Source: Hymenopus coronatus (taxonomy: Eukaryota; Arthropoda; Insecta; Mantodea; Hymenopodidae). Taken from it: a stretch of 64,000 nt of DNA. The stretch lies in contig CM060895.1 of assembly GCA_030762935.1 (NCBI GenBank), positions 40,043,001-40,107,000 of the forward strand. The letters run 5' to 3'. The stretch's first letter is position 1. Every line of letters begins with the position of its first letter. The position numbers and the translations under genes were made by a program. This document shows, piece after piece, positions 6,405 to 62,642 of the stretch. Below the pieces are notes generated by a model, which did no database searches, was not told where the DNA came from, and saw nothing but the letters and a program-made list of their open reading frames with translations.

Positions 6405-6526
6405 TGCTTTTTACTTTCTCTGCACGTACTATGTACATAGAGTATAGAGAAGGTATTGTTGCACTCCACCCAAAAATTCGATACCGAGATTTCACCGCAA
6501 ATATATTTTAAGGTCCCCTGTATCCA
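6405..6526 (+). repeat. Rep-1 copy 5, part 1 of 3
   Basis: Palindrome end through GGTCCCCTGTATCCAAAAA. The element is cut inside its A-run by copy 6 and resumes after it. Confidence 0.9.
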
Positions 6527-7431
6527 AAAAAATCTCATGTAATCCATTCACATGACTTTCTATATATCACTGCAACAAATTTTTGTTAAGTTTATGCTTC
6601 TATTTACTTCATGCTAAGTGAGAAATTGGCAGAAATAGTCTTATTACTTGCTTCCCTGTGTAAGTAGAAGCGAAATAAGGGAGTAACATAGGTTAAGTGA
6701 TAGAAAAAGATGGTTGCTATGTGACTGAAGTTCCTTTGTCTGTATGGACAGGAGTTGACAAATTCCTGTATGAGAAAATTTATGTTTTTTAAGGCTGAAA
6801 GAAAAACAAGGAATATCTAAAAAAAAAAAAAACGCTCAACTCCACGAAAAAAAAAAGTATATAACATAAATTGTGTGTTTTAATGTGCTCTACATGTTTT
6901 GTGTGGTAAGTTTTTAACTATCTCTTACGGTTTACCAGTTATACAAAATTCCGCAAAATTCATTCAGAATCAAGGACTCTTCAGAGGCAATTCCCAGAAA
7001 ATTCAAGATACGCATATTATTTGTCAAGTATATGTCTTTAATATATGCTATTTTAATTTTAATCAAAATCGTTAGAGCCTTCTTTTAGAAAATCAAAATT
7101 TTGGAAAAATTTTCCACGCAAAGGGTAGTTGAGGGTGGGGGGATTTTCTTGAAAATCTTCGTGTCGCATCCTTAGAAGATACTGAACTTAAATACTAAGT
7201 TTGGTATTTAACGGTCTTTTCGTTTTTGAGCTATGCTGCCCACAGACACACACACACATACACACAGATAGACAGACAGACACACGGACATTTTTCTAAA
7301 AATGTGTTTTTTTGGATTCAGCTGATCTCAAAACATGTGTTTTCGGTGAAATCTCGGTATCGAATTTTTGGATACAATGTAATTCCTTCTCTATACACCA
7401 TGTACATAGTACGTATAGAGAAAGTAAAAAA
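6526..7431 (-). repeat. Rep-1 copy 6, full length, inserted in copy 5
   Basis: Complete from ATCTCATGTAATCCATTCAC to GTATAGAGAAAGTAAAAA. It sits in the A-run of copy 5, whose next bases (GCATTTTCAGAAAAAGG) follow directly on the right. The CA tract near 7245 is mixed CA/GACA. Confidence 0.92.
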
Positions 7432-8045
7432 GCATTTTCAGAAAAAGGTCCGTGTGTGTCCTTAAACAAGATAACTCAAAAACGAAAAGTCGATAAAATA
7501 CCAAACTTGATATTTAAGTTTAGTATCTTCCAGGGATACGACACGAAGATTGAGAAAATCCCCCCCAAACTACCCTTTACATGGGACTTTTCGAAAATTT
7601 CGATTTTCTCAAAAAAATGGCTCTAACGATATTGATTAAAATATCATATATTAAATACTTTTACCTGACAAATAAAATGTATATCTTGAATTTTCTGGGT
7701 ATACTCTTTGCAGACTACTTTATTCTGGATGAATTTTACGGAATTTTGCATAACTGCTAAACCGTAAGAGATAGAGAAACAGTTATCACACAAAAAATGT
7801 AGAGCACGTTAAAATACACAATTTATGTTATATACATTTTTTTTCTTGGAGTTGATCGTTTTTTTTTTTAGATATTCCTTATTTTTTCAGCTTTCAAAAA
7901 ACTTTACTTTTCTCATACAGGAATTTGTAAACTCCTATCCATTCAAACAAAGGAACTTCAATCACATAGCAACCAGCTTTTGACTATCCTTTTAACCTAT
8001 GGTGCTCCCTTGTTTCGCTTCTACTTACAAGGAAGCAAGTAATAA
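7431..8045 (+). repeat. Rep-1 copy 5, part 2 of 3
   Basis: Continues the consensus from GCATTTTCAG to AAGCAAGTAATAA, where the Penelope-like element interrupts it. Confidence 0.9.
8033..8045. repeat. Target-site duplication, left copy
   Basis: AAGCAAGTAATAA, 13 bp, repeated exactly at 10729-10741. It is part of the Rep-1 consensus, so it marks a clean insertion into Rep-1. Confidence 0.92.
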
Positions 8046-8081
8046 TGTGTCTTCTTAGCTTCCGGAGAAGGCCGCGTTATC
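8046..8081 (+). repeat. PLE terminal inverted segment, left
   Basis: 36 bp starting TGTGTCTTCTTAGCTTCCGG. Its exact reverse complement is at 10658-10693. Confidence 0.9.
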
Positions 8082-8292: not shown

Positions 8293-9561
8293 TCATGGGG
8301 CCCGGTACCGCCGAAGCAAACCGAGTGATTGTGGGTAACTGTATTTTGAAGCGTGGGGTGTAGGGGCAAACGACATGGCGCAATGCCATGACGGCGACCT
8401 ACAAAAGTTGAGGTGCATAGCTAAACCAGAGGGGCATGTTAGTCTGGCGATGGAGCTCTTCCCAGGCGAGTTCTGGGTGATGTAGCCATAGCTCCAAAGC
8501 TTAGTGTGTTTGGACGATGATGTATGGCTAATATGATTTGCTGTGTCATATCTTGCAGTCTTATTGTTAGTCCTCGAGTCTGTTGCTGAAGCAGCTCGAT
8601 TGTGGACCTTGTAGATTCGGGAATTGTTGATGTAGTCCACCACCTTCTCGAGGCTCCTATTGAAGTGGTCTCGCAAGGCGGCGTTCTCCCGGTGAACTTC
8701 TTGAGGTGTAGATTGAAGGCTGAGGGCGGTTGCCTGAAGCTCCGCCAGAGAGCGGGTCAGGGCTTCCTCCCACGTGGCGATACGTTCGGTTATGGTGTTG
8801 ACTGCAAGACGGAGATTTTGGAGTTCGGCTGTGTTGGTCGCAAGGTCATTTCAGAGCTGGATGAGTGTGGAGGTCTGCGGTGGCTGTTCTGTCTGCGAGG
8901 TAGTGATGATGGGAGCTGGCGGGTGAGAGAGTGGTTGTGGTGGTGCTGCGTGCGGCTGATGAGGTGCTGGTTGTGGTGGCGCGGCGTACGGCTGGTGAAT
9001 GGCTGGGATCTGTCTGCGTGGATGTTTGGGGCACACCGCTTGACCCGTGTAGTGACCTGCGCTGTTGCAAGTAGCACAGTACACGGGCCGGCGTCTCAAA
9101 TCATGGTAGGTGCAGGCGGAGGTGAGACATCCGGCGTCACAGTAATGGCAACGGGCGGAGGCTGTGCAGGCGTCTGATGAGTGCCCGTAATGACAGCATC
9201 GGCGACACGGGAAGACACGGACGCCTCGTCCGTGCTCAACTGCGAGCACCTGCCCGAGGGCAGGCAACCCATCAGCTAAGGCGGCGCGGTAGTCCGCCTC
9301 GTTCCAGAATTCCAGCCTGACAAGCGGTGACGGTCCTCTCTCCGTGTGAATTCTTGAGGCTTTCATGAGTGAAGGCCAACAAAGACGGCCAGCGTTGAGT
9401 ACTAGACCGTCCGGTAATTGCCGGTGAACTCCACGCACCACTGCGCAGAAGCGCGGCAGCGAGGAGAGGTCTAGTACTGGTGACGGCGAGGGTGGTGTGT
9501 TGACGGTGGTGAATTGGCGTGGGTACTGGCACCGCTCTTTCCTGGTGATGTTGGAGTTGCT
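8293..9561 (-). pseudogene. Gag-like protein, CCHC zinc knuckles plus coiled coil, one internal stop
   Basis: Reading one minus-strand frame from just after a TAA (9564-9562), the frame stays open to a single TGA at 8853-8851 and then continues in the same frame to 8293. Part one has ~120 residues with a globular look (LVRLEFWNEADYRAAL), then CRRCCHYGHSSDAC (C-x2-C-x4-H-x4-C), a second Cys/His cluster (CHYC...CTYH), and CATCNSAGHYTGQAVC, followed by a Pro/His/Ala-rich linker. Part two is Leu/Glu-rich with heptad spacing (TAELQNLRLAVNTITERIA). Zinc knuckles of this type bind nucleic acid in Gag and LINE ORF1 proteins, and a coiled coil would oligomerise them. I infer an RNP-forming Gag-like role. 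The TGA is probably a CGA-to-TGA mutation. The true start may lie in another frame upstream, where the sequence is Lys/Arg-rich (KRKRKATPTS). It overlaps the tail of the PLE frame. Confidence 0.7.
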
Positions 9562-10592
9562 TTACGCTTTCTTTTTCCAGGTTTTTGTTTCCTGTTTGTC
9601 TTATTTCTTGTTTTAGATTGTGGTTTGGATATTCTTTTAGTAAATGCTGCCGTGGATTGCCGTCCGTTTCTAGAATGCCGCATGTCTCCGCCCCTTGCCT
9701 CTCTTTGGCTGGAGGCCGGCCTATTATGGCTCTCCTTGTGAGCAGAGTTTTCCAGATGTTGTGGAGATGTTTTCCGCCGTCCCTGTTGATGTTCTTCTTT
9801 TCTTTGAAAATCTCTATGCTTTCACGGGTCATTCTGTGATGAAAATTGCTGCAGGTGGCTATGAGCTCTGTGTTGTCAAAGTCAATGTGGTGGCCGGTTG
9901 TTATTACGTGTTCAGCTAGTGCGGATTTTTCGGGTTGGTCGAGTTTTAGACTGCGTATGTGTTCTTTTCTGCGTGTTACTATGGACCGTCCTGTTTGGCC
10001 AATGTAGGCACTTCCACAGTCGCATCTAATCCTATATATGCCCGGGTTTAGGAGCGGGTTGCTGGTATTTTTGGCTGGTCGTAGGAACGATCTGAGCTTT
10101 CTTGTTGAGGTGTAGCGAGTTCTGATGTCGCGGCTTTTAAGGACTTTGGAAATCCTGTCTGTGACGCCTCGAATGTATGGTACATTGATCCATTTTTGGT
10201 TGTTTTTTCTGGAGTCCTGGTCGTCGTCCTTTTCGGGGGTTCTTCGGTTGGTGTTCCTTTGTATTTCCCGTATTTCTTTGTGTGCGTAGCCATTAGCCCT
10301 GAGAATGCTGTTCAGGTGTCTCATTTCCTCTCTGACGAGTTCTGGGTCGCATATGCGAATGGCGCGGAGGAATAGTGCGTTTATCATTCCTCGTTTTATG
10401 GCGGGTGAATGGTGAGAAGACGCATCTAAATATCTGTTGGTGTGAGTGGGTTTTCTGAAGACTGAGCATTGTACAGTCTTGCTCGTTTCATCTCGTTGTA
10501 CCAAGACGTCTAAAAATGGTAGTCTTCCGGCCTCTTCTATTTCCATTGTAAATTGTATGCTCGAATGGAGGTTGTTTATATATTGGAGAAAA

Positions 10593-10657
10593 CCGGTTAT
10601 GGTGTCTCTGCCGTGTCTCAAAAGTAGTATGGCCACACGGCAGAGACACCATAACCG
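10593..10657. repeat. Foldback at the PLE 5' junction
   Basis: TTATGGTGTCTCTGCCGTGT (~10597-10616) is repeated in inverted orientation at ~10636-10655 around an 18-base spacer. This marks the point where the 5'-truncated coding part joins an inverted piece of the same element. Confidence 0.85.
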
Positions 10658-10693
10658 ATAACGCGGCCTTCTCCGGAAGCTAAGAAGACACAT
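10658..10693 (-). repeat. PLE terminal inverted segment, right
   Basis: Exact inverse of 8046-8081. It is followed by a further 35 bp (TCAAGACTCAGGTCGTGGAA and onward) absent from the left end, so the left copy is the shorter one. Confidence 0.9.
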
Positions 10694-10728
10694 CAAGACT
10701 CAGGTCGTGGAAGCCTACGCATCCATTT

Positions 10729-26079: not shown

Positions 26080-26335
26080 TTTTGGATCCATGGTTAACCA
26101 AGACCACGTTCAAACCCGGTGGAGGGCGATGGATTTTTTTCGGGCGAAAAATGCGTAACATGACTTCCTTTGGAAGGTAAGTTAAGCCGGTGGTCTTGTG
26201 TCGCAGATTTACGGTACGTATATGAACCTCAAGCCTGATAATGAGGCCTCCGAATAAAATTAAGCAGTCTTTTACCAACATAGAATGGGACACTGAGAAC
26301 CGCAGCAGTTAAGGAGCGTCCATAAAATATAAAAC
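26080..26335 (+). mobile_element. SINE-A copy a
   Basis: B box GTTCAAACCC and the body GAGGGCGATGGATTTTTT...AGCGTCCATAAA. The tRNA head before the B box is corrupted. It lies directly left of Rep-1 copy 16. Confidence 0.75.
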
Positions 26336-26938
26336 ATATTTTTATTTTCTCTACATGTACTATGCACATAGTGTATAGAGAAGGTATTGCACTCCACCCA
26401 AATTTGATACGCATATTTCACCGGAATAAATATGTTTTAAGGTCCCCGTTTAAAAAAAAAGCATTTTCATTAAAAGATCCATGTGTGTCCGTGAACACGA
26501 TAACTCAAAAACGAAAATTCGGTAAAATGCCAAACTTGATATTTAAGTTTAGTATCCTCCAGAAACACGACACGAAGATTTTGAGAGAAATCCCCCACCC
26601 CAAACTACCCTTTACATGGATCTTGTTTCGCAAATTTTGGTTTTCTCAAAAAATGGCTCTAACGATTTTAATTAAAATATTGTATATAAGAGATATTTAC
26701 TTCACAAATAAAATGTATATTTTGAATTTTCTGGGAATAGCCTCTGAAGACTACTTTAATCTGGATGAATTTTACGGAATTTTGCATAACCGGTATACCG
26801 TAAGATATGGACAAAAATTTACCATTCAAATAATGTAGAGCACGTTAAAACACACAAATTATGTTATATTTTTTCGTGGAATTGGTCGTTTTTGAGATAT
26901 TTCTTGTTTTTTGTTTCAGATTTAAAAACATACCTTTT
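26336..26938 (+). repeat. Rep-1 copy 16, part 1 of 2
   Basis: Good palindrome (CTACATGTACTATGCACATA) and body up to AACATACCTTTT, where a SINE-D is inserted. Confidence 0.92.
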
Positions 26939-27168
26939 TGGGGGGGGGCAGCTTAACGTCCTTTAACCTGGTTGGTCATATCGGACGATGAATGAAATTG
27001 GTGACATGATGCTCAAATGATATCGGGGTTCATAGAGAGATTTGTCTTCTCAGGATAAGGGAAACCCCGAAAAAAAACCTTGCCTGGGTAACTCACCCTA
27101 AGCGAGATTCGAACTCACGACTGTTGAATGTGAGGCAGACACGCTACCACCACACTACCCAGGCGGAC
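26939..27168 (-). mobile_element. SINE-D copy 1 in Rep-1
   Basis: Minus-strand tRNA head with B box GAGTTCGAATCTC and 3' body ending in a G/C homopolymer. Flanked by AACATACCTTTT (26927-26938) and AACATACCTTTC (27169-27180), 11 of 12 bases matching. Confidence 0.88.
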
Positions 27169-27419
27169 AACATACCTTTCTCATACAAGAATTTGTCAAC
27201 TCCTGTCCATAAAAAGAAAGGTACTTCAGTCACATAGCAACCAGCTTTTGACTATCACTTTAACCATATTTCGCTTCTACTTACAAGGAAGCAAGTAATG
27301 AGACTATTTCCGCTAATTTTTTCTCGATTAGCACGAAGTAAATAGAATCGTAAGCTTTTTAACAATAATTTGTTGCAGAGATGAAGAGAAAGTCTTGCGA
27401 ATGGAACACATCAGATTTT
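27169..27419 (+). repeat. Rep-1 copy 16, part 2 of 2
   Basis: Resumes at the duplicated target and runs to GGAACACATCAGATTTT. Confidence 0.92.
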
Positions 27420-27750: not shown

Positions 27751-28566
27751 AAAAATCTGATATGTTCCATTCTCTGCATATGCTTCTATCTACTTTATAA
27801 TAATCGAGATAAACATTAACAGAAATTGTCTTAATTACTTCTTCCTTGTAAGTAGAGGGAAAATAAGAGAATACACAAGGTAAAACGATAGAAAAATATT
27901 TTAAAAGCTGGTTGCCATGTGGTTGTAATCCATTTCTATGCAGGGTCAGGAGTTTACCAACTTTCCGTGTGAAAAAGTTTTAAGTATTATTCTAAATCTG
28001 AAACAAATAACAAGGAATATCTCAGAAATGGTCAATTCAACGAACAAAAACGTATATGACATAAATTGTGTGTTTTAACGTGATCTACAGTTTTTGTAAT
28101 AAGTTTTTGTCTATCTCTCGCGGTTTACCAGTAACGCAAAATTCAGTAAAATTCATTCAGAATAAAGAGGTTTTTAGAGGCTATTTCCAAAAAACTCAAT
28201 ATATACATTTTATTTGCCATATAAATGTCTTTAATGTGGCTATTTTAATCAAAATCGTTAGAGCCCTTTTTGAGAAAATCAAAATGTTGGAAATTTTTTC
28301 CATGTAATTTGGAGTGGGGGGATTTTTCTCAAAAGCTTCGTGCTGCATCCGTGGAAGATACTAAACTTAAATACCAAGTTTGATATTTTACGACTTTTCG
28401 TTTTTGAGTTGCCGAGCTCAGACACAGGACACACACACACTTTACTTCTTCTGACACAGGAGACCCTAAAACGTCTATTGCCGGTGAAATTACGTTAATG
28501 AATTTTTGGGTGCAATGCAATACCTTCTGTATACTATGTATATAGTATGTGAGATAAAGTAAAAAT
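27751..28566 (-). repeat. Rep-1 copy 17
   Basis: AAAAATCTGATATGTTCCAT to GAGATAAAGTAAAAATAG. The palindrome has drifted to ACTATGTATATAGTATG, still self-complementary at the centre. Confidence 0.9.
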
Positions 28567-29310: not shown

Positions 29311-30112
29311 GGCAACTAGAAGATATATCAGTGAACACTGAACAAACTTGTGGATGAATCAAAATTATTTTGAGTGACAGGAGGAGAGCCTTTTCTTTCG
29401 ATACAGTAAAGATGTATCTTGTAATTCACTTCAATGAACTCTGAGCGAGTTTGGTTGATTTATGTTCATTGTCTTTTCAAAGCTCTGTCTATTAGTATCC
29501 TGATTTTTTCTGTATCAAACTCTATAGGTATTTTATTTGTAAAAGTACAAAGCAGTTTTATTTGTCAATCGTATTATAACTGCTTTATTGTGTTACTTTA
29601 AGAATTAGAACGATGCACGTAATGAGCTACTTTTGAAACAATTATATGCATGTTTACGCTACAAACCCCTTGCCACTACCCTCTCTTTATGTCCCTGACT
29701 GCTGTGTGTGTTAGTAACTGTATGCGCTTCGGAAGCCAAAACCGTGCTCTACTAAATTCTCATTAAAAGGCTGATTCGCGTAGGTCAGGTTCTAGATTTG
29801 TATCATTTAGAAATTTGAATGCAACTACTTTGGCAGTTTCAAGATAAAGCAAGAGAAATCAGTGTAATTCTGTAGCAGTAACTTACTCATATAAATACAC
29901 AACCACGTAGATTGTGCTGGCTAAAAAGTTAAAGATTTCTCTGGCCTGTTAATAAATTTCTAAAGTAATAGCAGTTCTTCTAGTTACCAGGTTGGCAACA
30001 CTGTTTCAAGGATATGCATATGACCCAAAATCACATGCGCAACTGTTGCAACCTTCTCCGATAGTGAACATAGCACGCAATGGGATTTTCTGGTTTTAGT
30101 ACTAATTTATAA
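29311..30112. other. Unassigned interval
   Basis: No repeat end, domain or tRNA box seen. Confidence 0.4.
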
Positions 30113-30915
30113 GTAGGTAGAGAAGGTATTGCACTCCACCCAAAAATTCGATAGGGAGATTTCACGAGAAATACATGATTTAGGGTCCCCTATATCCAAA
30201 AAATCATTTTTAGAAAAATATCCGATAACTCAAAAACGAATAGTCAGTAAAATACTAACTTGGTATTTAAGTTTATCTTCCAAGGATGCGACACGAAGAT
30301 TTTGAGGAAAATCTCCCCATCTCAAACTACCCTTTACTTCGTAAAATGCTCCGCAAATTTTAATTTTCTCAAAATTGGTTATAACGATTTTGATTAAAAT
30401 ACTGTATATTAAAGATATTTACATGTCAAATAAAATGTTATTTTGAATTTTCTATGAATAGCCCATGAAGACTTTATTCTGGAATTAATTTTGATGAATT
30501 TTGCATTACTGCTAAACTGTAATAGCCAAAAAGATATTACACAACAAATGTAAATCTAGTTAAAACACACAATTTATATTACATATATTTTTCCTTGGAG
30601 TTGACCATTTTCGAGATACCTATTCCTTGTTATTGGTTTCAGTTAACTTTACTCATACTGGAATTTTGAAACTCCAGGCCTTGCAAACAAATGATTTCAA
30701 CTAAATAGCAACCAGCTTTCAAATTGTTTGACTATCACTTTAGCCTGTTTTATTTCCTTATTTCACTTCTACTTACAAGGAAACAATAAGACCATTTCTG
30801 TTAATATTTATCTCGATTAGCATGAAACAGGTCTACAAGAATAAGCGTTTTAGCAACCATTTGTTACAGAGGTATAGAAAAAGTTATATAAATGGAACAC
30901 ATCGGATTTCCTTTT
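30113..30915 (+). repeat. Rep-1 copy 18
   Basis: Lacks the left palindrome arm (begins GTAGGTAGAGAAGG) and has no microsatellite at all. The 3' end is GGAACACATCGGATTTCC. Confidence 0.88.
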
Positions 30916-31384: not shown

Positions 31385-32208
31385 TAAAAATCTGATGTGT
31401 TCCATGACTTTCTCTACATCTCAGCAACAAATTATTGTTAAAAAGCTTATGCTTCTATTTACTTCATGCTAATTCAGAAACATTAGTAGAAACAGTATTT
31501 TTACTTACTTCCTTGTAAGCAGAAGCGAAATAAGAGAGTACTATCCTTGAAGGGATAGTCAAAAGCTGATTACTATGAGACTGAAGTTCCTTTGTTTGTA
31601 TGAACAGGAGTTGACAAATTCCTGTATGAGAAAAGTTTAAGTTTTTTAAAGCTGAAACCCAAAACAAGAAATATCTCAAAAATGACCAACTCTACGAAAA
31701 CAAAAGTATATAACATAAATTGTGTGTTTTAACGTGCTCTATATTTTTTGTGTGGTAAATTTTTGTCCATCTCTTACGGTTTAGCAGTTATGCAAAATTC
31801 CGTAAAATTCACCTAGAATAAAGTAGTCTTCAGAGGCTTTTCCCAGAAAATTCAAGATATACATTTCATTTGGCATGTAAATATCTTAAATATAAGAGCT
31901 TTTAATCAAAATTGCTAGAGCCATTTTTGAGAAAACCAAAATTATCGAATAAAGTTCCACGTAAACGTTAGTTGGGGTGGGGGATTTTCTTGAAAATCTT
32001 CGTTTTGTATCCTTTGAAGATACCAAACTTAAATACCAAGTTTGATATTCAACGGACTTTTCGTTTTTGAACTATGCTGTCCATAGACACACACACACGG
32101 ACCTTTTCCCAAAAATGCTTTTTCTGGATTAATAGGGACCCAAAACATTACTTCCGGTGAAATCTCGGTATTTATACACTATGTACGTAGTACGCGTAGA
32201 GAAAGTAA
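31385..32208 (-). repeat. Rep-1 copy 19
   Basis: AAAAATCTGATGTGTTCCAT to GTAGAGAAAGTAAAAAA. Short CA tract. Directly abuts the 3' end of copy 20 in head-to-tail order. Confidence 0.92.
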
Positions 32209-32276
32209 AAAATCTGAAGCTATTCCACAAAAGAATTTTCTTTACCAAAGACTATCATTTTATCCTCATACTAATC
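32206..32276 (-). repeat. Rep-1 copy 20, part 1 of 3
   Basis: AAAAAATCTGAAGCTATTCC up to TCATACTAATC, where a SINE-A is inserted. Confidence 0.82.
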
Positions 32277-32583
32277 AAAATGAAAAAAATGAAATGGCGT
32301 GTTATTTATGGACCCTCTTCAACTGCTTTGGTTCTCAGCGTCCCATTCTATATTGGGCGTGAAAGATCGCTTAATTTTGCTCAGAGGCCTCTCTTATCAG
32401 GCTTTAGGTTCTTTACGTGCCGTAAATCTACGACACGGGACCCACAGCTTTACTTCCCTTCCGAAGGAAGCCATGCTAAGGATTTTTACGCCCGAAAAAA
32501 TCCATCGTCCTCCGCCGGGTTTGAACCCGCGACCTTGGGTATATGAAGTTAGCATGGTAACAATTACACCACGGAGGGCGACA
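32277..32583 (-). mobile_element. SINE-A copy b in Rep-1
   Basis: Minus-strand tRNA head with A box TGGTGTAATTG, B box GGTTCAAACCC and the family body. Flanked by a perfect 11-bp duplication TCATACTAATC (32266-32276 and 32584-32594). Long plus-strand frames across it are artefacts. Confidence 0.9.
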
Positions 32584-33047: not shown

Positions 33048-33886
33048 ATAAAAATCTGTGTGTTCCATTCACATGACTTTCTCTACATCTCTGCAACAAC
33101 TTATTGTTAAAAAGCTTATGCTTCTATTTACTTCATGCTAAGTGAGAAAAAAGTAGCAGAAATATCCTTATTATTTGCTTCCTTGTAAGTAGTAGCAAAA
33201 AAAGGGAGTACCATAGGTTAAAGTGATAGTCAAAAGCTGGTTGGTATATGATTGAAGTTCCTTTGTTTGTATTGACAGGAGTTGACAAATTCCTTTATAA
33301 GAAAAGTAAGTTTATTTAAGGCTGAAACCAAAAACAAGGAATATATAAAAAAACGATCAACTCCACGAAAAAAATGTATATATCATAAATTGTGTGTGTT
33401 TAATGTGCTCTACATTTTTTGTTTGCTAAGTTTTTGTCCACCTCTTACGGTTTACCAGTTACACAAAATTCCGTAAAATTCATCCAGAATAAAGCAAGTC
33501 TTCAGAGGCTATTCCCATAAAATTCAAGATATACACATTATTTGTCAGGCATGTATCTTTAATATACGATATTTTCATCAAAATTGTTAGAGCCATTTTT
33601 AGAAAATAAAAATTTTCGAAATTTTTTCCATGTGAAGGGTAGTTGGGGGTGGGGGTATTTTCTCGAAAATCTTCGTGTCGCATCCTTGGAAGATACCGAA
33701 CTTAAATACCAACTTTGGTATTTATCGGTCTTTTCATTTTTGAACTATGCTGCACACAGACACACGGACATTTTTCTAAAAATGCTTTTTTTTTATTTAG
33801 GTGGTCTCAAAACATGTATTTCTGGTGAAATCTCGGTATCGAATTTTTGGGTGCTATGTGCATGTACATAAAGAAAGTAAAAATGT
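33048..33886 (-). repeat. Rep-1 copy 21, inserted in copy 20
   Basis: AAAAATCTGTGTGTTCCATT to TAAAGAAAGTAAAAATG. Its palindrome is shortened (CTATGTGCATGTAC). The bases after it (GTAAACATATAG...) continue copy 20. Confidence 0.88.
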
Positions 33887-34050
33887 AAACATATAGTATT
33901 TTAATCAAAGTAGTTTGAGCCAATTTTGAGAAAACAATAATGTTCAGAAAATGTTCCATGTAATAGGTAGTTGGAGGTGGGGGAATTCTTCGTGGCACAT
34001 TCTTGGAAGACACTGAAAGTAAATATATTTGAAATATATATATTTTAAAG
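33887..34050 (-). repeat. Rep-1 copy 20, part 3 of 3
   Basis: Continues with ATTTTAATCAAAGTAGTTTG to the CACTGAAAGTAAATATATTT segment, then ends at a long T-run. The palindrome end is lost. Confidence 0.82.
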
Positions 34051-34425: not shown

Positions 34426-34612
34426 GCGTCATGGCTTCCTTCGGAAGGGAAGTAAAGCTGTGGGTCCCGTGTCGTAGATTTACGGCACGTAAAAGAACCT
34501 CAAGCCTGATAAGAGAGGCCTCTGAGCAAAATTAAGCGATCTTTCACGCCCAGTATAGAATGGGACGCTGAGAACCAAAGCAGTTAAAGAGCGTCCATAA
34601 ATAACAGGCCAT
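34426..34612 (+). mobile_element. SINE-A copy c, 5'-truncated
   Basis: Body from CATGGCTTCCTTCGGAAGGG to AGCGTCCATAAATAACA. The tRNA head is absent. Confidence 0.82.
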
Positions 34613-35327
34613 TTTTTTTCCTTTTAATTAGATCATGCATTTTTAGAACGTGAAATTTGATATTGTCCCTGTCTCAGAATCATATGCTATAATTGGAGAG
34701 TGACAAACGAATACTGCATTGAATTAAAACAAAAGATGGACTCTGATATCTGTATAAACCTGTCGATCTTTGGTCCACTTTTGTGGTTGCCGCTCTGCTC
34801 ATCCACAATCTTATAAACATCGCTGAAATTAATGTCTGTATTCCAGTTTATCTAACACGTCAGACCACGAGGTATTTTATGAAAATACATCGTCAAAACT
34901 ATTTATTGGTGCTTTATGAAGTAATTTATTACAATGTCTTCAGGCTTTTACTCCGCACTAACACTAATTTACAGTACTGGGGCACTTTGTTCCATGAATT
35001 AATGAATACCCTATCTTGGGAAACATTTTATCTTATCTGAAAGAAGTAAGTCACAGTGTTGCCAATTCATAGGTATCTGCCAACTAATCATATGCTTCAT
35101 GTGAATCCCTGAGGTTCGAAGTTGCTATCTTACATAATACCAATTTGATTATTTTATGGAGCAATCTTTGTGACAAATTTTCTAGTTTTATACAGTCTAT
35201 TTTGCATCCTCTATGTTTCACCAATTTCTGAAAGTCTCTGCCGACAGCACGCGCAAGTTGGCTTCAACTTACAGTATTTATTATTCCATATTAAAATAGT
35301 ATCAAACTCGTACACAATATATTTATA
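34613..35327. other. Unassigned interval
   Basis: An 85-codon plus frame (34783-35040) has hydrophobic stretches but no recognisable family. No splice context or promoter seen. Confidence 0.35.
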
Positions 35328-45977: not shown

Positions 45978-46123
45978 ATTTTTACTTTCTCTATACGCAC
46001 TATGTACATAGTATATAGAGAAGGTATTGTACTCCACCCAAAAATTCGATACCGAGATTTCACCGGAAATATATGTTTTAGTGTCTCCAATATAAAAAAA
46101 ATCATTTTCACAAAAAGGTCCGC

Positions 46124-46158
<35 letters not shown>

Positions 46159-46867
46159 GGTGCGTGTGTGTGTGGGTGCGTGTGTGTGTGTGTCTGTGAA
46201 CACGATAACTCAAAAACGTAAAGTCGGTAAAATACCAAACTTGGTATTTAAGTTTAGTATCTTCCAGGGATGCGACACTACCCATTTTTTCGAAAATTTT
46301 GATTTTCTCAAAAATGGCTCTAACGATTTTGATTAAAATTTCGTAAATTAAAGATATTTACCTGGCAAATAAAATGTATATCTTGAATTTTCTGGGAATA
46401 GCCTCTGAAGAATAGTTTATTCTGGATGAATTTTACTGAATTTTGAATAACTGCTAAACCGTAAAAGATGGACAAAAACTTACTGCACAAAAAATGTAGA
46501 GCACGTTAAATCACACAATTTATGTTTATGTTACATACATTTCTTTCGTGAGTTCGTCGTTTTTGAGACATTCCTTAGTTTTGGTTTCTGCTATGAAAAA
46601 CTTATACTTTTCTCATATAGGAACTTGTCAACTCCTATCCATATAAACAAACGAATTTTATTGACATAGAAACCAGCTTTTGACTATCATTTTAACCTAT
46701 GGTAGTTCCTTATTTCGCTTCTACTTACAAGGAAGCAAGTAATAAGACTATTTCTGCTGATTTTTTTCTTATTAGCATAAAGTAAATAGAAGTATAAGCT
46801 TTTTAAAAAATAATTTGTTGCAGGGATATAGAGAAAGTCATGTGAATGGTACACATAAGATTTTTTG
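45978..46867 (+). repeat. Rep-1 copy 27, best-preserved ends
   Basis: Subterminal repeat perfect over 12 bp: ACTTTCTCTATA at 45983-45994 and TATAGAGAAAGT at 46827-46838. The 3' hairpin ATGTG/CACAT is at 46840-46856. TG/GTGGG microsatellite at 46124-46195. Confidence 0.95.
46124..46195 (+). repeat. (TG)n with GGTGGG interruptions, inside Rep-1 copy 27
   Basis: Compound tract at the element's standard microsatellite site. Confidence 0.92.
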
Positions 46868-53221: not shown

Positions 53222-53520
53222 ATCACCCTCCGTGGTGTAATGGTTACCATGCTAGCTTCATATACCCAAGGTCGCGGGTTTAAATCCGGCGGAGGACGAT
53301 GGATTTTTTCGGGTGTAAAACTCCTTAGCATGGATCCTTCGGAAGGGAAGTAAAGCCGTTGGTCCCTTGTCGTAGATTTACGGCACGTAAAAGAACCTCA
53401 AGCCTGATAAGAGAGGCCTCTGAGCAAAATTAAGCGGTCTTTCACGCCCAGTATAGAATGGGACGCTGAGAACCACAGCAGATAAAGAGCGTCCATAAAT
53501 AACACGCCATTTCCATTTTT
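53222..53520 (+). mobile_element. SINE-A copy e, full length
   Basis: A box TGGTGTAATGG, B box GGTTTAAATCCGG, complete body to TAACACGCCATTTCC. Flanked by a perfect 11-bp duplication ACAATACATGT (53211-53221 and 53521-53531). The best reference copy of the family here. Confidence 0.93.
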
Positions 53521-54382: not shown

Positions 54383-54607
54383 ATTTTTTTTTTTTTTTTA
54401 GCTTAACGTCCTTTAACCTGGTTGGTCATATCGGATGATGAATGAAATGCAGCTCAAATGATCAGTCTCCTGACATTCGTCTTCTCAGGTTAAGGGAAAA
54501 CCCCCAAAAGCCTTATCCGGGTAACTCACCCTAAGCGAGATTCGAACTCGCGTCCTGTTGAAACTTGAATGTGAGGCAGACACGCTACCACCACATTACC
54601 CAGGCGG
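54383..54607 (-). mobile_element. SINE-D copy 2 in Rep-1
   Basis: Minus-strand head TGGGTAATGTGGTGGTAGCG, B box GAGTTCGAATCTC, body to GACGTTAAGC and an A-run. Flanks GCAACAACCTAG and GCAACAAACTAT agree at 10 of 12. Confidence 0.88.
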
Positions 54608-54687
54608 GCAACAAACTATTCTTACAAAAGCTAATTCTTCTACCTACCTCACGCCTAAAAAGAAAACAACAGCAGAAATGGCTTTAC
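54608..54687 (-). repeat. Rep-1 copy 34, part 2 of 2
   Basis: CAAACTATTCTTACAAAAGC to CAGCAGAAATGGC, then an abrupt switch to an opposite-oriented copy. Confidence 0.7.
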
Positions 54688-56445: not shown

Positions 56446-57128
56446 ATTAAAACACTCTGATGCGTTACATTCGCATGACTTTCTCTACATCTCTACAACA
56501 AGTTATTGTTAAAAATCTTATCCCTCTATTTACTTTATGCTAATCGAGAAAAAAATTAGCAGAAAGTGTCTTATTACTTGCTTCTACTAGCAGGGAGATA
56601 AGGGAGTACACTAGGCTAAAACGATAGTCATATCTTTTAAAAGCTGCTTGTTCTGTGATTGAAGTTCCTTTGTTTGTATGGACAGGAACTGACAAATCCT
56701 GTATGAGAAAATTATAAGTACTTTAAAGCTGAAACCAATAACAAGGAATATTTCAAAACTGTACGAAAAAAATGCACATAACATAAATTGTGCGTTTTAA
56801 TTTTTTGTGTGGTAAGCTTCTGTCTATCTTTTACGGTTTACCAGTTACGCAAAATTCCGCAAAATTCATTCAGAATATAGAGGTCTTTAGCGGATATTCC
56901 CAGAAAATTCTAGATATACATTTTATTTGCCATTTAAATATCTTTAACACGCGGTATTTTAATCAAAATCGTTAGTCATTTTTGAGAAAATCAAAATTTT
57001 CGAAAAGTGTTCCATGTAAAGGGTAGTTGGGGATTTTCTTATAAATCTCCATGTCACATCCTTGGAAGATACCAAGCTTAAATACCAATTTTGGTATTTA
57101 ATGGTCTTTTCGTTTTTGAGCTATGCTG

Positions 57129-57175
<47 letters not shown>

Positions 57176-57314
57176 TATTTTTCTAAAAATGTTTTTTTTA
57201 TTCAGGGGGTCTCTAAACATGTATTTCCAGTGAAATCTCAGTATCAAATTTTGGGTGCATTACAATACCTTCTCTACACACTGTAGATATATAGTACGTG
57301 TAGAAAAAGTAAAA
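56446..57314 (-). repeat. Rep-1 copy 36, first of a tandem pair
   Basis: ACTCTGATGCGTTACATTCG to GTGTAGAAAAAGTAAAAA. CA repeat at 57131-57172. Its right end runs directly into the left end of copy 37. Confidence 0.93.
57131..57172 (+). repeat. (CA)n microsatellite inside Rep-1 copy 36
   Basis: About 20 units at the standard position. Confidence 0.95.
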
Positions 57315-57628
57315 ATCTGATGTGTTCCATTCGCATGACATTCTTTGCATCTCTGCAACAAATTATGTTAATAAGCTTATTATTCTATCTCCTTCATGCA
57401 TATCGATATAAGCATTAGCAGGTACGGTCGTATTACTTAGTTTCTTATATGTAGAAAAGAAGTAAGGGAATACACTAGTCTAAACAGACAGACATGTTTT
57501 AAAAGCTGGTTGCTATGGGATTGAAATCTGTTTCTTTGCGTGGCCAGGAGTTAAGTTCCCGTATGAGAAAAGTATAAACATTTAAAACTGAAATCAGAAA
57601 CAAGGAATATCTCAAAAATAGTAAACTC

Positions 57629-57671
<43 letters not shown>

Positions 57672-58184
57672 AGTATATGATATAATTGGATGTTTTAAGA
57701 AATCTACATTTTTTGTGTAGTAAGTTTTTGTCTATGTCTTACGGTTACTAGTTATGCGAAATCCAACAAAATTTATCCACAATAAAGAGGTCTTCAGAGG
57801 CTATTCCCAGAAAATTAAAGTTATACATTGTATTTGACATGTTAATATCTTTAATATACGATATTTTCATCAAAATCGTTTAAGCCATTTATGAGAAAAT
57901 CGAAATTTTTTCCAAGTAAAGGATAGTTTTGGGGAGCGGGGTGGGTTTATCAGTCTTCTCTACTGAACTTAAATACCATATTTGATCTTTTACCGACTTT
58001 TCGTTTTAGTTATCGTGTTCACAGACACACGGACACTCGGACTTTTTTCTAAAAATGTTTATTATGGATACAGGGGCCCTAAAACAGTATTCTAGGTGAA
58101 ATATCGGTATCGAACTTTTGGGTGGAATACAATACCTTCTCTATACACTAGTGAATAGTAGTACGTGTAGAGAAAGTAAAAATC
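57312..58184 (-). repeat. Rep-1 copy 37, second of a tandem pair
   Basis: AAAAATCTGATGTGTTCCAT to GTGTAGAGAAAGTAAAAATC. The palindrome has an insertion (ACTAGTGAATAGTAGTACGT). Has a GA expansion at 57632-57666 where the consensus has CCACGAAAAAAA. Confidence 0.93.
57632..57666 (+). repeat. (GA)n microsatellite inside Rep-1 copy 37
   Basis: About 17 units at a site not used in other copies. Confidence 0.93.
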
Positions 58185-59105: not shown

Positions 59106-59331
59106 TTAATTTTTTTTAGGGGGGGATGCCATTCAAGAGGTCTCGAGTTCGAAACTCCTTAAGGTGAGTTACCCGGATTTGAATATTTCCGGGGTTTTCC
59201 CTTATCCAGAGAAGGCAAATGTCGAGTAACTTTAAGCTCTTTGAGCAAATTCCACCGATTTCACTCATTAATCGACTGATATGACCTACGAGGGTAAACG
59301 ATGGTAAACTTTAAAAAAAAAAAAAAAAAAA
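59106..59331 (+). mobile_element. SINE-D copy 3, old, poly(A)-tailed
   Basis: GAGTTCGAAACTCC (B box), GTGAGTTACCCGG body and a 3' A-run at 59313-59331. The first half of the head is eroded into a G-run. Confidence 0.75.
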
Positions 59332-61636: not shown

Positions 61637-61783
61637 TAAACAAATCTGATGTGTTACAATCACATGACTTTCTCTAACATGACCTGTTAAAAAGCTTATT
61701 CTTCTATCTACATCATGCTAATCCACTCTGATAGCAGATATTGGCCTTATTACTGGTTCCTTATAAATAGAAGGGAAAATATC
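61637..61783 (-). repeat. Rep-1 copy 38, 3' stub
   Basis: AAATCTGATGTGTTACAATC to GAAGGGAAAA, then interrupted by or fused to copy 39. Confidence 0.8.
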
Positions 61784-62642
61784 TAATGTATTCCATTCAC
61801 ATGATGTCCTCTAGTTGTTCGGTAAATAAATGTTTTATTCAAAACATCAATCTGTTATCTACATCATGCTAATCAAGCTAAATATAAGTAGAATTAGTCT
61901 TATTACTAGCTTCCTTGTATGTAGAAGAGAAATAGGAAAATTGCATAGAGTAAAGCGATAGTCTCGTTCTTTAAAAGCCGGTCGCTGTGTGAAACAATTG
62001 AAATTCCAATCTCTGTTTCGAGGAGTAAGCGAACGAGGAACTAGAAGAAACATGTCTTCCCGTTTGAGAAAAGTTTAAGTGCCTAAAATTGAAACTAATA
62101 ATCCAGAATATCTCGAAAACTGTTAACTCTACAAAAATGTATATAACATAAATTGTGTGTTTTAATGAGATCTACATTTTTTGTATAGTAAGTTTTTGTA
62201 TATCTCTTACACTCAGTTATATAAAAGTCATTCAATGAAGAATTCTTCAGATGCTGTTCCCAGAAAATCCAAGATAAACATTTCGGTTGTCATAAAAAAT
62301 CTTAAACATACGGTATTTTAATAAAAATCGTTAAGACATTTTTGAGAAAATTACAATTTTTTAAAAATGTTCCATGTAAAGGGTAGTTGGGAGTGGGGGG
62401 ACTTTCTTGAAAATCTACAGGTCACATCCTTAGAAGATACCAAACTTGAATACCATGCTATGCTGCCCACAGACACAGAGACACACACACACGCGCGGTG
62501 ACATTTTTCAAAAAATGATGTTTTAGATTCAGGGGATCTCAAAACATGTATTTCTGACGAAATCTTGGTATCGAATTTTTAGGTGCAATACATAACCTTC
62601 TCTATACACTATGCACATAGTATGTGTAGAGAAAGTAAAAAT
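61784..62642 (-). repeat. Rep-1 copy 39, full length
   Basis: TATCTAATGTATTCCATTCA to GTGTAGAGAAAGTAAAAATT. Palindrome well kept (ACTATGCACATAGTATG). CA tract ends in CGCGCG. Confidence 0.92.

Follow-up and report, generated by a model that had tools for sequence, protein, structure and literature searches.

A complete copy of the repeat family Rep-1 lies within the 64-kb window, the whole stretch of Hymenopus coronatus DNA that was analyzed (35.8% GC), and its structural features are given in Table 1 along with further copies from the same window. The element is bounded by T-runs, and the outermost base on each side of the interval 45978–46867, to which the first-pass annotation had assigned it, belongs to the flanks. 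In elements of the HINE/DINE-1 class, subterminal inverted repeats (subTIRs) of ~11–15 bp are located 0–4 nt from the 5′ end on one side and, on the other, tens of base pairs inside the 3′ end. Those of Rep-1 are 12 bp long and exact inverses of each other, the first residing right after the 5′ T-run and the second about 28 bp inside the 3′ end, which is closer than the ~35 bp initially estimated. A hairpin with a 7-nt loop (arms ATGTG, 46840–46844, and CACAT, 46852–46856) follows the 3′ subTIR. The paired repeats, the hairpin, and the T-runs at both edges had all been recognized beforehand; the CA microsatellite reported for the middle of the element is also present, as a GT-rich tract, but occupies the first quarter of Rep-1. 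With at most one mismatch, the 12-mer ACTTTCTCTATA is found 33 times in the window, where 0.55 occurrences would be expected. A further palindrome, AAATACCAAACTTGGTATTT, resides at positions ~196–216 of the Rep-1 consensus and ranks with the family's best conserved stretches.

Table 1. Coordinates of the complete Rep-1 element, its structural features, and other informative Rep-1 copies in the window.
Feature	Position	Strand	Basis or remark
Rep-1 copy, complete non-autonomous DINE-1/HINE-class element	45979–46866	+	Profile match
5′ terminal T-run (TTTTT)	45979–45983	+	
5′ subTIR, ACTTTCTCTATA	45984–45995	+	Outer palindrome arm
Imperfect 5′ palindrome, 42 bp, 19 pairs, 2-nt bulge in left arm	45984–46025	+	subTIR plus the "IR" of DINE-1
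Inner palindrome arm (IR)	46014–46025	-	Reads ACCTTCTCTATA on the minus strand
GT-rich microsatellite, downstream of 5′ subTIR	46124–46198	+	Tandem-repeat scan
3′ subTIR, TATAGAGAAAGT on the plus strand	46827–46838	-	Exact inverse of the 5′ 12-mer
3′ hairpin, ATGTG-AATGGTA-CACAT	46840–46856	+	Fold energy within the range of shuffles (weak)
3′ terminal T-run	46861–46866	+	
Rep-1 copy nested in a Rep-1 host (parts 6408–6531 and 7425–8051)	6528–7430	-	T tract in uninterrupted relatives
Rep-1 copy nested in a Rep-1 host (parts 34025–33887 and 33041–32581)	33053–33881	-	
Rep-1 copy whose 3′ T-run doubles as the next copy's 5′ T-run (junction 57311–57315)	57311–58182	-	
Less diverged member of the head-to-tail pair (second Rep-1 copy)	56451–57315	-	K2P 0.119 vs 0.199
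Rep-1 copy split by an unrelated SINE-like repeat with flanking direct repeat	26339–27419	+	Positive control for target duplication

An nhmmer model built from 17 copies identifies 47 Rep-1 segments in the window, which together cover 25,685 bp (40.1%), so that the earlier estimate of ~40% in 40 copies was right. Most of the 17 aligned copies have common termini, beyond which their sequences differ; 30080–30909 lacks the 5′ end, 27776–28566 lacks part of the 3′ end, and the palindrome is partly missing from 31386–32211 and 33050–33910. When the ends from the window were pooled with those from twenty sampled 10-kb stretches of the genome, the consensus drawn from 81 5′ and 82 3′ ends agreed with these termini, T-runs being readable at 70 of the former and 51 of the latter. 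The ATGTG…CACAT hairpin is present in the consensus of the 82 3′ ends and is also seen in individual ends. The lack of coding capacity proposed by the first-pass annotation is borne out by the five open reading frames (ORFs; 110–173 aa) that overlap Rep-1 copies, none of which exceeds a Pfam cut-off: four have no match of any kind, and the fifth, which contains a poly-lysine run, has three weak matches that all fall under the curated thresholds. At 61642–62641 (minus strand), a complete copy is immediately followed by a second 3′ terminus (model positions 726–876, at 61778–61642), a doubling that could reflect either end-bypass or insertion into a truncated copy.

Other repeats share the window with Rep-1. 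The interval 8854–10699 (minus strand) is read here as the remnant of a Penelope-like retroelement. Its 475-aa frame (9275–10699) has 61 protein matches, of which many carry a reverse transcriptase domain and some GIY-YIG, and its best named relatives are from insects, at about 45% identity; the same frame yields nothing against Pfam at E up to 0.01. The neighboring frame, 8854–9561, is cysteine-rich and retrotransposon-like in appearance. A repeat of ~220 bp at 26948–27166, inside a Rep-1 copy, is termed SINE-like on our reading of a tRNA-like stretch, and has relatives at 54400–54616, at 59130–59310, and in the sampled stretches. Dispersed repeats also occur outside the Rep-1 matches (26105–26335, 32279–32580, 34429–34631, 53223–53520, and 11 other stretches), with up to 3–16 overlapping matches each in the window and the 200-kb sample.

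The most elaborate feature of Rep-1 is the palindrome at its 5′ end, in which the subTIR constitutes one arm. The first-pass annotation considered it unfamiliar. Its kind is in fact that of the published DINE-1 "IR", an inverted repeat complementary to the 5′ subTIR and situated 1–22 bp away (Yang and Barbash, 2008; Thomas et al., 2014; the oyster HINE paper), although its length, at 19 pairs and 42 bp, is above that of the published examples found in excerpts of these sources. The DINE-1 IR is described as "partially complementary to the 5′-end terminal repeat" (PMC2374699), and its distance from the subTIR is about 3–22 bp in the available part of another account (PMC4067079). An arm-pairing score of at least 10 is reached by 38 of the 81 5′ ends and by none of 81 shuffled counterparts, with the remaining 43 ends scoring lower; this palindrome is a genuine, inherited feature. 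When the window was scanned for ungapped hairpins, only two TA microsatellites were returned, the palindrome being missed because of its 2-nt bulge.

Compensatory changes among 18 copies give no signal of selection for pairing when compared with 500 shuffles. Over the 19 pairs, 88.7% of cells are paired, compared with 87.2% after shuffling (3 of 500 shuffles being as high), and three pairs are changed on both sides, against a shuffled mean of 2.0, a value that 129 of the 500 shuffles equal or exceed. Nor are the ends clearly better conserved than the interior, the terminal 45 nt ranking at 0.11 (5′) and 0.33 (3′) among interior windows, and the fold of the 3′ hairpin is not clearly better than that of shuffled sequence (z of -0.30 for the consensus and -1.44 for copy 45979–46866). 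In 15 of 16 copies, the 3′ subTIR agrees with the outer arm of the palindrome no less closely than with the inner one; as the outer-arm consensus was used to locate the 3′ repeat, which introduces a bias, and as many copies are degenerate, this preference carries no weight and nothing is built upon it.

Canonical Helitrons (Helitron1) have 5′-TC and CTRR-3′ termini and insert between A and T. The ends of Rep-1 are of another form, consisting of a T-run followed by ACTTTCTC at the 5′ side and CATCAGA followed by a T-run at the 3′ side. Similar comparisons can be drawn with non-autonomous relatives, for which the published descriptions were available in excerpt. The arrangement of 12-bp subTIRs, 5′ IR palindrome, microsatellite near the 5′ end, 3′ hairpin, and terminal T-runs is the layout of DINE-1/INE-1 of Drosophila, a non-autonomous Helentron with a short subTIR 0–2 nt from the 5′ end and its 3′ counterpart internal, an IR complementary to the 5′ subTIR, a microsatellite in the 5′ block, a 3′ stem-loop, a T-rich target, no coding capacity, and high abundance (PMC2374699, PMC4067079). 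Within what those excerpts describe, Rep-1 differs from DINE-1 in its subTIR (ATACCCGTTACTC in D. melanogaster), the comparison being one of layout rather than of homology between blocks A and B, in the type of its microsatellite (GT rather than GTCY), and in the extension of the IR into an almost continuous palindrome.

The Cg_HINE elements of Crassostrea gigas likewise combine a subTIR of 11–12 bp, an adjacent IR of 7–12 bp at a spacing of 1–12 bp, a microsatellite, a 3′ palindrome, and a T-rich target without duplication (PMC7492417, in excerpt). They also have central satellite-like arrays, of which a tandem-repeat scan of the window found none in Rep-1 copies. The pairing of Rep-1 continues through the spacer. 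HINE-Mo and the Culex Helentrons share with Rep-1 a palindromic 5′ end, a 3′ hairpin, T-runs, and unmodified empty sites, and in these systems a partner encoding Rep, helicase, and endonuclease has been found (PMC4067079, in excerpt). There the subTIR is itself the palindrome, whereas in Rep-1 it forms one arm of a longer one; the 19-pair structure is of the kind that DINE-1 and Cg_HINE exhibit as an IR near the subTIR and that the mite and Culex elements exhibit as a palindromic subTIR. Rep-1 fits these published DINE-1/HINE elements (PMC4067079, PMC2374699, PMC7492417, each seen in part), and we consider it very probable that it is a non-autonomous rolling-circle family of the Helitron2/Helentron branch (HINE, DINE-1 class), its mechanism being that of the class and its load the product of old bursts. 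The HINE/DINE-1 assignment made by the first-pass annotation is thereby upheld at the level of this branch, on the features that a non-autonomous element can display. By structure, Rep-1 is a family of an already known kind, for which no claim of being unpublished is made; the surprising part is its amount.

A family of this class would depend on an autonomous relative, and the Helitron Rep domain (PF14214) is indeed present in the host genome, with 112 matches at 86 places (grouped within 3 kb), compared with none in 14 control genomes. Among the seven of these 86 places that were inspected (L040–L046), none has Rep-1 ends as its own termini, nor does this material contain a partner with such ends that encodes a DDE transposase or a reverse transcriptase. 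A tblastn search of the window and the sample for Rep and helicase pieces returned just two loci (L022 and L028), neither in the window, and 20 ORFs outside Rep-1, scanned out of the window's 155 of at least 60 aa, gave nothing over a Pfam cut-off. L040–L045 are related to one another. In the 10 ORFs scanned from L040 and L041, loci without Rep-1 ends, Pfam finds Rep and PIF1-type helicase domains and no endonuclease domain. CTAG forms the 3′ end of the insert in L043, whose 5′-TC is not evident. On the strength of this domain content and the CTAG end, L040–L045 are taken for ordinary Helitrons; they are like Rep-1 in belonging to the rolling-circle class and unlike it in their termini.

L043 (G000 C16:151281501-151291500) bears a superficial resemblance to the missing partner, displaying a 5′ part of Rep-1, a Rep-helicase, and a 3′ part of Rep-1 on one strand. 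It was rejected, as its 5.25-kb interior shares about 90% identity with L041, a locus without any Rep-1 match in its 10 kb, and as its two Rep-1 parts continue each other (up to about model position 506, then from 538). L043 is accordingly another Helitron situated inside a Rep-1 copy, and it illustrates a trap for partner searches that rely on flanking ends. L046 was also rejected, its Rep being diverged and broken and its Rep-1 pieces lying on the 5′ side only, in both orientations and without paired ends.

The alternative that survives best, although it is unlikely, is that Rep-1 derives from a Helitron2 without endonuclease or from a proto-Helentron, in which case the strict term HINE would be wrong and the mechanism the same. 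The ends of Helitron2 and Helentron elements are alike, with asymmetric terminal inverted repeats and hairpins at both ends (PMC5148889, in excerpt), and no endonuclease domain was seen in the 10 ORFs scanned from L040 and L041, loci that in any case do not carry Rep-1 ends. However, the inspected Rep places number seven of 86, and insect elements linked to Helentrons in the accounts seen in part resemble Rep-1 in the DINE-1-type IR next to the 5′ subTIR, the microsatellite, and the T-rich target.

The sites at which Rep-1 resides are informative about how it inserts. In the window and the twenty sampled stretches, 45 distinct copies are complete. Enough flanking sequence is available for 43, of which eight lie inside another Rep-1 copy that runs across the junction and hence represents an empty site; the other 35 yielded no empty site spanning the insertion, Rep-1 being present on a flank in 22 and on neither flank in 13. 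The clearest of the nested cases (6528–7430) sits at the T tract of its host copy, and uninterrupted relatives of that host supply the empty site. At five of the eight nested sites, the junction coincides with five or more consecutive Ts in the host consensus, read in the orientation of the insert, compared with 18% of background positions, and the mean longest T-run is 4.9 against 3.1 (P about 0.001), in alignments that may be pulled toward T-runs by the Ts placed between the joined flanks. At the other three sites the host consensus has just 2–3 Ts. The test of empty sites proposed by the first-pass annotation has yielded eight of them, free of any duplication beyond Ts. Rep-1 inserts into T-rich sites without target duplication beyond Ts, as do HINE/DINE-1 elements, which enter TT or T-rich sequence, bear terminal T-runs of variable length, and leave empty sites unmodified.

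Three junctions were found at which adjoining copies have a T-run in common, and all three are head-to-tail, with none head-to-head or tail-to-tail. Such copies might be rolling-circle multimers generated in a single event, given that tandem copies are known for Helitrons (PMC4067079, PMC5148889, both in excerpt). This reading is rather improbable. In the one pair that was dated, that of the window, the members differ in their Kimura two-parameter (K2P) divergence from the consensus (0.199 and 0.119) and do not group in a tree; their unequal divergence and separate placement probably fit better with insertion of the second copy into the T-run of the first.

DINE-1 was once classified as a MITE-like cut-and-paste element, and a MITE of a DDE transposon is characterized by terminal inverted repeats and a target duplication of fixed length. 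That Rep-1 is itself such a cut-and-paste transposon, with a TT target duplication, is very improbable, even though it has inverted repeats, no coding capacity found, and a high copy number. Its 3′ repeat is internal and is followed by a hairpin, and once Ts are removed, the two flanks of each of 17 copies have at most one base in common. The summed match of these flanks is 6, compared with a shuffled mean of 9.3, and is reached by 1856 of 2000 shuffles (one end each of copies 12901 and 33877 having been placed a few bases off). Target duplication of more than ~6 bp, which the first-pass annotation would have regarded as contrary to its assignment, is consequently not seen in these flanks, in which the terminal T-runs could conceal a duplication of 2–5 bp composed solely of Ts. 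Duplications are detectable in this window, as evidenced by the ~10-bp direct repeat that flanks the SINE-like insert in Rep-1 copy 26339–27419. Elsewhere, the same layout is tied to Rep-helicase partners (PMC4067079, in excerpt).

The host assembly comprises 3,126,739,099 bp in 384 contigs. Allowing up to three mismatches, a 28-mer from the 5′ palindrome matches at 229,597 places (115,339 on one strand and 114,258 on the other) and a 36-mer from the 3′ end at 341,140, while the reversed control patterns have no matches; older copies are missed by these patterns because they have accumulated more changes. In the twenty 10-kb stretches (200 kb), hand-chosen on contigs C1–C16, which represent 1.94 of 3.13 Gb and exclude the 545-Mb C21, Rep-1 occupies 30.9% on average (range 2.7–73.6%, bootstrap 95% interval 20.5–41.8%), with 61 5′ ends and 56 3′ ends, and the reversed sample again gives no match. 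Rep-1 is often found inside other copies, has ends at hundreds of thousands of places in the genome, and accounts for ~31% of the 200 kb sampled. Scaled up from this hand-chosen sample, the family would amount to about 0.96 Gb and ~0.9 million copies, and one old family seems to make up roughly a third of the 3.1-Gb genome. The spread between stretches (sd 0.25) exceeds that of a simulation of random insertion (0.098, with a largest value of 0.130), which indicates that the copies cluster; gene density or composition could contribute to this clustering. That the abundance is an artefact of assembly or search, or a satellite, is very improbable, since the variation between stretches that might suggest it is accompanied by zero matches for the backward patterns and the reversed sequence, and by copies that lie on both strands, are often nested, differ by 7.9–47% (42 copies), and form no tandem array. 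A search of viral contigs and genome contigs with Rep-1 core patterns returned 11 loci (L001–L011), none of which has an nhmmer match at E up to 10; they were rejected as chance matches of short patterns.

The copies are old. The K2P distances of the 17 window copies from the consensus range from 0.087 to 0.247, with a mean of 0.144, and pairwise differences among 42 copies have a minimum of 0.079 and a median of 0.28, producing a tree with long tips. A single 38-bp piece is the only sequence in the window and sample with more than 95% identity to the consensus, and eight copies chosen by an exact 28-bp 5′ end, six of which reach the 3′ end and two of which are shorter, are 73–88% identical among the pairs listed. 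The window, the sample, and these fetched copies contain no sign of recent activity, on a scale at which a small young subfamily could escape detection. The present load was probably made by old bursts and not by current activity.

By analogy with the class, transposition of Rep-1 would begin with recognition of the subTIR and palindrome at its 5′ end by the Rep-helicase of an autonomous relative, which would nick the DNA and peel off one strand. Termination would occur at the 3′ subTIR and hairpin, and the freed strand, probably a single-stranded circle, would be joined into a T tract. The terminal T-runs and internal A/T tracts of Rep-1 may in turn provide fresh landing sites for the family, which would help to explain both nesting and clustering. 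Conceivably, then, repeated old bursts turned Rep-1 into a dominant component of the genome (about a third of it, close to 1 Gb in 0.9 million copies) in part through self-feeding, with its own T tracts as the preferred target and each insertion creating landing sites in fixed orientation and so giving rise to nested clusters; this proposal is a tentative one.

Most of the rolling-circle shares that published excerpts give for animal genomes are small: 6% for a vesper bat, 6.6% for Heliconius (PMC4067079), 6.3% for the screwworm fly (PMC7403345), and about 4% for the silkworm (PMC3789558). The high values found are totals for all Helitrons, namely 28% in the house fly (PMC6327564, in excerpt) and, in morabine grasshoppers, 17–22% of assemblies and 23–29% of reads (PMC7754599, in excerpt). 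Set beside these totals for all Helitrons, the fraction occupied by Rep-1 as one family alone stands at the top of the published values found in the open literature. If its share is indeed near a third of 3.1 Gb, a single DINE-1-class family would match or exceed the high reports, and would do so with non-coding sequence. Rep-1 makes genome growth by rolling-circle transposition directly measurable, and its very large set of nested insertions allows both the dating of insertions and the reading of target choice.
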